From the NCBI GenBank assembly GCA_947469485.1, contig CANIPU010000002.1, forward strand, positions 1-64,000: a stretch of 64,000 bases of DNA. The letters run 5' to 3'. The notes under the pieces are model-generated. The model saw only the letters and a list, made by a program, of their open reading frames with translations, searched no databases and was not told where the DNA came from. Below are positions 43,972-47,105 of the stretch, one piece after another; the stretch's first letter is position 1, and every line of letters starts with the position of its first letter. Source of the stretch: Chitinophagaceae bacterium. Lineage in GTDB: Bacteria > Bacteroidota > Bacteroidia > Chitinophagales > UBA10324. The translations under genes and the position numbers were made by a program.

Positions 43972-44139
43972 TTCATATTTCATTCTCCGGTGCTCATATT
44001 TCATTTCCCGGCGCTCATATTTCATTCTCCGGTACTCATATTTTACATCTCTCCGCTCATATTTTGCATCCCTCTACTTATATACTGCATCTCTGCGTTC
44101 ATAAGTTCCATCTCTTCGCTCCAACACCACATTTCCCCG
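43972..44139. repeat. Tandem repeat of eight 21-bp units
   Basis: The unit of 21 bp is on the plus strand CTCATATTTCATTCTCCGGTG in its clearest copies (43993-44034) and degrades to the right; all eight units keep exactly 21 bp. Since 21 is a multiple of three, both strands keep an open frame over several units: a plus frame at 43957-44169 repeats a hydrophobic heptad, and the minus strand has a 33-codon run with a repeated M-S/N-x-E-M pattern. I consider it a non-coding or decayed repeat rather than a gene. Confidence 0.6.
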
Positions 44140-44287: not shown

Positions 44288-45460
44288 CTATTCTGCAATA
44301 ATGAACTTATGCATTGAAGCCAATTTTTCTTTTTGTGAAAGTGTTATGAAATAGAAACCATCACACAAATCAGATATATCAAATTTCATCTCATAACCGG
44401 AAATATTTTTTAGCACTTTAACTTTTTTACCGGCAGCATCATAAATAAATAACTCAGCATCTGACAAAAACTGCTTTGAAAAAACGGTTGCTATTCCCTC
44501 AACCGGATTTGGAAAAATTGAAAAAGAGGTTAAACCAATTTTTTCTTCAACACCGGTGCAAATCAGTGAGCAGTTTTGTGCTGATGTAATTCCGTTTCCT
44601 GCCGAAATCAAATTCTGAAACTCATCACCACTTGCACAATCATTTTTTAAATAAAAATTCAGCCAGGGCAAAAGCAAACTAAAAGTTGTTGCCTGTTGTG
44701 CCTGCGCAGTAATGGTTGGTTGAGGACTACAAGTAGCTTCTCCAAACTGACATAAAAAATCATTATCAGCAAACTGACAATGACTTCCGCCTGTTACACT
44801 TACAAAAGATTTACAAGTTGAAATAAGTGCATCGTACATTAATTGCTGATGCTGTGCAGGAGGTGCCACGCAATCGTTTTCTGCTGCAATAACAATACTT
44901 GGTTTGGTAATGCCTGCAGCTGCTGTAACAGATGACGGATTGGTTACTGCAGCAGCTAAAGTTGCTAACGCTGTAATAGATGAATCATATTGCATTGCCA
45001 GAAAAGCGGAACCCCCTCCCATTGAATGCCCCATTACAGCAGAAGTTGGTGCCACTGCTCCAAAAAAATCAGATGACGAAGTGTTGCCTTCTGTTTTCAT
45101 TGCCCCAATCAGAAATGCAATGTCTTTTCCAAAATCAGTATGAGAGGGCGATAAGGATGTTTCAGTTGTTGGAAAAACCATGATATAACCTTGTGGCACT
45201 AAGGCATTCCAAACCACATCATAAGAGCTCCATACCATTACAAAGCCGTGACCAAAAACAAGAACCGGAAATTGCCCATTGGCAATTGGCACATTATCAC
45301 CGGCTGTATTTGCGGGATAATAAATTTCAGTTGTAATATTTCTGTTTGCACGGGAAGGATCAACAAATGTTTGTTGAAGATGCCCAACCTGGTATGTTTG
45401 AGCAGATACATTAAGCAGGAAACAAAAATGTAAAAGCAAAAGACTAATTCGTTTGATCAT
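44288..45460 (-). CDS. T9SS-exported alpha/beta hydrolase, polyesterase/cutinase-like
   Basis: A 390-residue secreted hydrolase. A signal peptide (LLLLHFCFLLNVSAQ) is followed by the hydrolase (about 25-300): FGHGFVMVW (oxyanion loop), nucleophile elbow GHSMGGGS with Ser146, Asp196 in IAAENDCVAP and His227 in TGGSHCQF, which together form the triad. GHSMGGG and the shape of the Asp and His loops are those of the polyesterase-lipase-cutinase group (dienelactone-hydrolase-like fold) that includes PETase-type enzymes. Six or more cysteines suggest disulfides. The C-terminus from SFSIFPNPVEGIATV is a T9SS type A sorting domain. It is monocistronic, and its natural substrate is unknown; a plain esterase/lipase is equally possible. 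Confidence 0.82.
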   Translation of the reverse strand: MIKRISLLLLHFCFLLNVSAQTYQVGHLQQTFVDPSRANRNITTEIYYPANTAGDNVPIANGQFPVLVFGHGFVMVWSSYDVVWNALVPQGYIMVFPTTETSLSPSHTDFGKDIAFLIGAMKTEGNTSSSDFFGAVAPTSAVMGHSMGGGSAFLAMQYDSSITALATLAAAVTNPSSVTAAAGITKPSIVIAAENDCVAPPAQHQQLMYDALISTCKSFVSVTGGSHCQFADNDFLCQFGEATCSPQPTITAQAQQATTFSLLLPWLNFYLKNDCASGDEFQNLISAGNGITSAQNCSLICTGVEEKIGLTSFSIFPNPVEGIATVFSKQFLSDAELFIYDAAGKKVKVLKNISGYEMKFDISDLCDGFYFITLSQKEKLASMHKFIIAE

Positions 45461-46404: not shown

Positions 46405-46421
46405 GTTTTTTGCTTTACAAA

Positions 46422-47105
46422 ATGAATCTGCTTCACGAACTGCAATTGCTTTGTTCAATTACCATTCTATTTTCACCTCACAATGAAACAGTGAAAATGA
46501 AAACCTACCGAATGCTCAACCTCGGCGATTCTTACACCATTGGCGAAGCAGTTCTATCAGCTGAAAATTTCCCGCATCAATTACAATTGCAATTAAATAA
46601 TTCAGGGATAGAAATTTCTTCTCCTGAAATTATTGCAACAACAGGGTGGACTACTGATGAACTGATGAAAGGAATAAATGAAAATCCTCCACCACCACCT
46701 TATGATTTAGTTACATTATTGATTGGTGTGAACAATCAATACCGCGGAAAATCAATTGACGAATACAGGAAAGAATTTTGTGAGTTGCTCGATCTTTCTA
46801 TTAAATATGCGAACAATAACTCCGCTCATGTAATTGTAATTTCTATTCCTGATTGGGGAGTAATGCCTATCGCAGAAGGAAGAGACCGGAAAAAAATTGC
46901 GGAAGAGATTGATGCATTCAACAAAGTGAACGAAGAAGAAGCAATAAAATCAGGTTGCCCATACTGTAACATCACAGCCATAAGCAGAATTGCAACAACT
47001 GATATATCACTTGCCGCTTCCGATGGTTTGCATCCATCAGCAAAGCAATATGAATTGTGGGTGGAGAAAATATTTCCACTCGCAAAAAAAATTTTATCTG
47101 AATAA
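46422..47105 (+). CDS. SGNH/GDSL-family hydrolase
   Basis: A protein of about 227 residues with the SGNH esterase blocks: block I LGDSYTIGE (Ser), the Gly in ATTGWTTDEL, LIGVNNQYRG (Asn) as block III, and SDGLHPS (Asp and His) near the C-terminus. The N-terminal 25 residues may be a signal or a mis-set start: ATG 46422 is taken, but ATG 46497 also gives a complete domain. These enzymes hydrolyse ester bonds in lipids or acetylated sugars. It is divergent from the YD-repeat gene and precedes an SDR gene with its own weak box. Confidence 0.8.
   Translation: MNLLHELQLLCSITILFSPHNETVKMKTYRMLNLGDSYTIGEAVLSAENFPHQLQLQLNNSGIEISSPEIIATTGWTTDELMKGINENPPPPPYDLVTLLIGVNNQYRGKSIDEYRKEFCELLDLSIKYANNNSAHVIVISIPDWGVMPIAEGRDRKKIAEEIDAFNKVNEEEAIKSGCPYCNITAISRIATTDISLAASDGLHPSAKQYELWVEKIFPLAKKILSE

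Follow-up and report, generated by a model that had tools for sequence, protein, structure and literature searches.

Does a gene that joins a PETase-like catalytic domain to a C-terminal tail of the type IX secretion system (T9SS) encode an enzyme that degrades plastic? This question is raised by a single gene in a stretch of 64,000 nucleotides of Chitinophagaceae DNA (contig CANIPU010000002.1, hereafter the window), in which the original prediction had recognized an exported hydrolase of the polyesterase-lipase-cutinase type with the architecture of the known PET-degrading esterases of Bacteroidota. The reading preferred here, which we consider probable, is that of a T9SS-exported serine ester hydrolase of family PF12740 that resembles PET38, with other extracellular esters as its likely substrates and without the expectation of efficient PET hydrolysis. 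The features on which the argument draws are as follows; the IsPETase positions in the alignments are given in the numbering of the literature.

44288..45460, minus strand: gene of the alpha/beta-hydrolase, putatively T9SS-exported; 390 aa plus stop, ATG start
45401..45460, minus strand: likely Sec signal peptide, residues 1-20, read from the sequence
44561..45400, minus strand: predicted PETase-fold catalytic domain, about residues 21-300 (PF12740 at residues 44-230; residues 20-300 of the model superpose on PETases with Z of about 29-30)
45242..45244, minus strand: Phe73, the retained oxyanion/clamp aromatic, aligned with IsPETase Tyr87; 47 of the 48 rows have F here and one has Y
45023..45025, minus strand: Ser146, nucleophile in GHSMGGG, 48 of 48 rows
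45020..45022, minus strand: Met147, equivalent to IsPETase Met161 (oxyanion hole), 48 of 48 rows
44948..44950, minus strand: Ala171, where IsPETase has Trp185, with four inserted residues after it; alanine throughout, both in the 48 family rows and in the 27 further ones
44873..44875, minus strand: Asp196, catalytic acid, 48 of 48 rows
44780..44782, minus strand: His227, catalytic base, 48 of 48 rows
44297..44518, minus strand: C-terminal T9SS sorting domain (residues 315-388), recognized by PF18962 and by TIGR04183, both scores exceeding the cut-off

Both targeting signals that had been predicted were recovered. The N-terminus, MIKRISLLLLHFCFLLNVSAQ, can be read by eye as a Sec signal peptide, and the AlphaFold2 model places a low-confidence helix at residues 2-15. 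The C-terminal tail scored 45.2 bits with PF18962 (Pfam cut-off 27) and 36 bits with TIGR04183 (NCBIfam cut-off 23), and SprA, the T9SS translocon, is encoded in the same genome (2582.9 bits against a cut-off of 200); by its sorting domain and the presence of SprA, the esterase counts as a T9SS type A cargo. The triad loops GHSMGGG (Ser146), AENDCVAP (Asp196) and TGGSHC (His227) are present letter for letter as originally described, and the three catalytic residues are identical in all 48 aligned family rows, query included. These rows are the BLAST matches of the query with E <= 1e-20 that cover more than 250 query residues, after removal of repeat copies of the same DNA; the 47-row set used below is the same set minus one fragment. 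A search of its own genome with the esterase gave no catalytic-domain paralogue at E <= 0.001, and 20 further places matched it from residue 282 onward only, i.e., in the tail region.

The assignment to the polyesterase-lipase-cutinase superfamily was borne out by family score and by fold. The best Pfam family of the esterase is PF12740, “PETase” (63.6 bits against a cut-off of 28, E = 2.4e-17, residues 44-230), with the generic alpha/beta-hydrolase families scoring lower. The best sequence match in the PDB is the PBS(A) depolymerase 8c65 (E 2.1e-15), many IsPETase entries are found from E 8.1e-15 upwards, and a profile of 34 relatives, query included, lifts the PETase matches in the PDB to E 3.5e-25. 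The AlphaFold2 model, built from 34 sequences, has a mean pLDDT of 89.5, and Foldseek gave IsPETase 6eqf as its top match (E 2.6e-17), with PET30 (7pzj), also among the PDB sequence matches, at rank 19. VIA-align was used for a second look at the Foldseek matches and aligned the model with GlacPETase 8x6v (Z 30.2, 242 residues, rmsd 2.1, 19% identity) and with IsPETase 5xjh (chain of 263; Z 29.5, 241 residues, rmsd 2.3 Å, 22% identity). Since rows within 1 Z count as tied, no single nearest PETase can be named. The structural matches listed for the model are PETases and cutinases, so that the predicted structure has the polyesterase fold.

Part of the family evidence also speaks for a chlorophyllase-like or lipid-directed esterase, acting on algal pigments or lipids in the water and resembling PETases by shared ancestry only, which we regard as unlikely. 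The Pfam Chlorophyllase family PF07224 scored 42.2 bits over residues 57-189, above its cut-off of 26, and each of the 34 sequences in alignment A1 has a match to it with E <= 0.01, just as each has one to PF12740 at that threshold; on the matter of substrate class, this counts against the reading preferred here. The oxyanion loop of the esterase is of the HGF...Y type, which we take to be a chlorophyllase likeness, and several relatives carry titles that refer to ponds or lakes. However, the PETase model scores higher than the chlorophyllase model, the structural matches listed are those named above, and the nucleophile motif is GHSMGG instead of the GHSRGG of chlorophyllases.

Within the PETase-like fold, the substrate subsite differs from that of IsPETase. 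In both sequence and profile alignments, Tyr87, Met161 and Trp185 of IsPETase align with Phe73, Met147 and Ala171; the segment from Ser146 to Ala171 is ungapped against IsPETase, and a four-residue insertion of the TNPS type follows. The conserved aromatic clamp that was to support the original prediction is therefore retained in one of its two positions (Phe73 for Tyr87), and its second position is alanine in every one of the 48 family rows (query among them). The same holds for all 27 rows added from the Fluviicola family, a set that excludes matches under 230 residues and fifteen locus ids that were more distant or had been used before. The complete triplet is Phe-Met-Ala in 46 of the 47 rows and Tyr-Met-Ala in the remaining one, and it is Phe-Met-Ala in all 27 further rows. 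Alanine was likewise found in every ORF left out of the 48-row count that reaches the position and is readable there. Among distant PF12740 matches beyond the counted rows, L054, L056 and L058 carry Phe-Met-Ala; L062 (E 3.1e-37, without the NPS motif) carries Tyr-Met-Ala. By sequence alignment, the aromatic clamp of type I/II PET hydrolases is thus incomplete in the esterase, with Phe73 kept and Trp185 replaced by Ala171. The motifs of the Type III enzymes are absent as well: GHSMG, Phe73 and Ala171 are found in the esterase, and the Type III PETases have GHSQG and Thr and Tyr at the clamp positions, according to PMC13396203.

IsPETase (5xjh, 6eqe) shares with the esterase the fold over 241 residues, the triad, Met161 and the Asp loop ENDxxAP, but wild-type IsPETase has Trp159 where the esterase has His145. 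In AdCut (8c65), the PBS(A) depolymerase, the alignment shows a Trp at the clamp position, unlike the Ala of the esterase, and the chain of 271 aa is too short for a T9SS tail. Close parallels in layout are PET27 (Aequorivita sp.) and PET30 (Kaistella jeonii, 7pzj), which combine a signal peptide, the PETase fold and a T9SS tail as the esterase does. Both hydrolyze PET and have retained Trp or Tyr in the position of Trp185 (PMC8767016, Table 3), whereas the esterase has Ala there and a different set of cysteines. Of the architecture attributed to the gene by analogy with the Bacteroidota PET-degrading esterases, the domain layout therefore stands, but the substrate site, being Phe-Met-Ala, does not. 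PET93 and PET94, PET-active Bacteroidota enzymes described in PMC13188925, have Tyr-Met-Trp and no PorC tail and are not of the Phe-Met-Ala type.

The shared layout and fold, together with the retained oxyanion aromatic and methionine, are what would be expected of an enzyme that, like PET27 and PET30, truly degrades PET, with low but real activity on amorphous PET and some other residue in the role of Trp185. PET30 itself has Tyr for Trp (PMC8767016, as tabulated), and the Type III enzymes are described in PMC13396203 as hydrolyzing PET without the classical stacking pair, so that a missing clamp alone is no proof against PET activity. At the same time, the invariant alanine in the 48 and 27 rows speaks against such an enzyme, and the same replacement cripples IsPETase: W185A is listed with 5% hydrolytic activity in a review table that cites Joo et al. 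2018 (PMC8669999), and in PMC8540959 the activity of the Trp185-to-Ala variant is given as highly diminished to totally lost. In addition, the model of the BHET hydrolase BdeA (NF051441, NCBIfam) reached 49.6 bits on the esterase, far under its cut-off of 520, and no activity was seen for PET38, which shares the triplet, although its expression was poor (PMC8767016, as tabulated). By analogy with the W185A precedent in IsPETase, PET hydrolysis by the esterase is unlikely, and a PET27/PET30-like activity is a reading that we hold to be quite improbable.

The PET38-like ester hydrolase preferred here owes its name to a protein of Fluviicola taffensis (WP_083800582.1), for which the tabulated data of PMC8767016 give 447 aa, the Phe-Met-Ala triplet, a PorC tail, S7 as first and I279 as last aligned residue, and a C-terminal length of 168. 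The protein of locus L129 (genome G512) is 459 aa long when read from its first ATG; read from Met13, its length is exactly 447 aa, with Ser at position 7, Ile at 279 and 168 residues beyond that Ile. From this fingerprint match to the published numbers we infer that the L129 protein is PET38. It is 44.6% identical to the esterase over 285 catalytic-domain alignment positions. PET38 has the triad, the Phe-Met-Ala triplet and the PorC/T9SS tail in common with the esterase (PMC8767016, as tabulated), but the L129 protein lacks the C197/C244 pair, with A and S in these places, and has a longer segment ahead of the C-terminal tail (459 vs 390 aa). In the same tables, PET38 is recorded with low expression and as negative or not determined on the substrates; weakly expressed candidates were not characterized further (PMC8767016), and in PMC9772341 PET38 is counted with the homologues reported to be inactive on PET. 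A construct starting at Met13 would have had a truncated signal peptide, and its cysteine bridges may not have formed, although T7 Shuffle cells were also used (PMC8767016); the negative result is therefore weak evidence. The esterase is an ordinary member of the PET38-like, Phe-Met-Ala subfamily, a grouping defined in this analysis, since it has the triplet, the T9SS tail and the C228/C237 pair found in 45 of 47 rows. A search of the literature, with most subscription journals beyond its reach, found no subfamily member with demonstrated activity or substrate.

Residues 197 to 301 of the esterase include eight cysteines, in agreement with the earlier remark on cysteines atypical of the group, and these extra cysteines are features of the subfamily. 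C228 and C237 are both present in 45 of 47 rows and both absent in the other two. For C197 and C244 the 47 rows divide into 29 with both, 13 with neither, five with C197 alone and none with C244 alone; in the five C197-alone rows (L040, L017, L016, L061, L015), a cysteine is shifted one or two columns onward. Twenty-five of the 27 further rows are without both, and L134 and L135 have C197 and a shifted cysteine. C216 and C297 occur together in 34 rows, C216 alone in 4, C297 alone in none and neither in 9, and three of the four C216-alone rows have a gap at 297. C275 and C301 occur together in ten rows, with C275 lacking C301 in 26, so that their pairing may be considered but is uncertain. Note that the Fisher p values for the cysteines are inflated by related rows (with near-duplicates L053/L028 and L037/L039 in the set) and are descriptive only. 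This pattern of co-occurrence suggests disulfides, most probably between C197 and C244 and between C228 and C237. As C197 comes directly after the catalytic Asp and C228 after the catalytic His, these two bridges would brace the loops of both catalytic residues.

These putative bridges are not those of IsPETase. The C203-C239 active-site disulfide, for which we take IIb to be the label among IsPETase-like enzymes, cannot form in the esterase, since Cys203 is replaced by Ala193; the place of Cys239 is occupied by Gln229 or Cys228, depending on the alignment. Cys228, which follows the catalytic His, corresponds to IsPETase Ser238 in the ungapped alignment and to Cys239 in the other, so that its place is ambiguous. 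The putative C197-C244 bridge would lie near the same loops as C203-C239 but is made of other residues. As for the type II C-terminal disulfide (C273-C289 in IsPETase, C262-C285 in PET30), C275, C297 and C301 are present in this region, and co-occurrence in the sequences couples 216 with 297. A C275-C297 bridge, with a spacing near that of PET30, was considered as its counterpart; C275 and C297 showed no co-occurrence (p = 1), and this reading was dropped because C297 goes with C216 and not with C275.

On a bolder reading, the Phe-Met-Ala subfamily would form a separate, functional kind of polyesterase found in aquatic Bacteroidota, and the negative result for PET38 would stem from misfolding without its disulfides. 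In the absence of the clamp Trp, the family-specific TNPS loop and the cysteine bridges around the loops of Asp and His would then form a different subsite I, and natural aliphatic or aromatic polyesters would be bound, with side activity on synthetic ones; this, too, we judge quite improbable. That the gene encodes an acetylxylan or feruloyl esterase of general type, with no more than a superficial resemblance to polyesterases, is the outcome that would have spoken against the original prediction; it is very improbable and was set aside, as nothing specific favors it beyond weak matches to generic alpha/beta-hydrolase families, PF12740 is the best Pfam family, and no such esterase is named among the best 60 of 187 PDB sequence matches or among the 50 structural matches listed.

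In the mechanism that we infer for the PET38-like ester hydrolase with respect to actual export, catalysis, disulfides and substrate class, the pre-protein would cross the inner membrane by means of its signal peptide, and the type IX system would carry it over the outer membrane, after which it would be released or bound to the surface. His227 and Asp196 would activate Ser146 for attack on the ester carbonyl, with the backbone amides of Phe73 and Met147 as the oxyanion hole, and the active-site loops would be held in place by disulfides between subfamily cysteines, most likely C197 with C244 and C228 with C237. Where PET hydrolases stack a Trp on the terephthalate ring, the esterase has an alanine and the inserted TNPS-type loop. 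Polyesterase-type ester hydrolysis is likely, and the most likely substrates would be extracellular aliphatic or lipid-type esters and oligomers of natural polyesters.

The gene is unevenly distributed. Clear relatives (best E <= 1e-50) were found in 19 of 60 relatives of the source genome, including 3 of the 5 of the same genus, and the catalytic-region profile matched 11 of 395 genomes of the phylum at E <= 1e-20, own genome included. The best 11 PF12740 matches listed for the 395 genomes, own gene included, all have the alanine, nine as Phe-Met-Ala and two as Tyr-Met-Ala. Of the genomes searched in the genus of the Fluviicola MAG (L046 genome), 2 out of 10 contain strong matches (best E <= 1e-50), and in its family 31 of 80 genomes match at E <= 1e-20. 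Because of this patchy occurrence in the searched genomes, the esterase gene is probably accessory. All 33 public loci come from MAGs by title (29 Bacteroidota, 2 Kapaibacterium, 1 Ignavibacteria and 1 Sphingomonadales), several with pond or lake names, and from its nearest relatives the source bacterium is probably a freshwater organism.

Several further features of these loci may be recorded here. L020, L021 and L041 belong to close relatives with 94-97% identity, and each of these contigs breaks off within the esterase gene (at query codons 290, 253 and 154, respectively), possibly through strain variation or an assembly problem. Paired paralogues of the esterase family in the same direction are found in L037 (1234-3839), L039 (4784-9171) and L046 (4542-7290), and one L039 paralogue is part of a protein of about 1,080 aa. 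Extra modules lie between hydrolase and T9SS tail in L026 and L027 (PKD_6) and in L034 (P_proprotein and Ig_7).

Gene context gives no hint of the substrate, since no neighbor is conserved: when the ORFs of at least 110 aa from 34 stretches (window 38-52 kb and L020-L052) were clustered, no cluster besides the family itself occurred in more than 4 loci. By sequence reading, the neighbors in the window are a Mfd-like helicase, a beta-barrel-like protein, an SGNH-like hydrolase, a short-chain dehydrogenase, a T9SS protein and CarB, which suggest no pathway. The ORF of the putative SGNH-type (GDSL-like) hydrolase lies at 46410-47105 of the window on the plus strand, with one gene between it and the esterase. 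A tandem array of units of about 21 bp, similar to TCATATTTCATTCTCCGGTGC, occupies positions 43973-44121, about 170 bases downstream of the esterase stop.

For the family as a whole, these results mean that PF12740 matches in Bacteroidota, also those with a T9SS tail, are easily read as PETases, and that flagging alanine at the Trp185 place would prevent false PETase annotations. The cysteine pattern tells how enzymes of the subfamily should be expressed for a fair test. From the PETase fold and the T9SS tail of the esterase, plastic degradation is not to be assumed.
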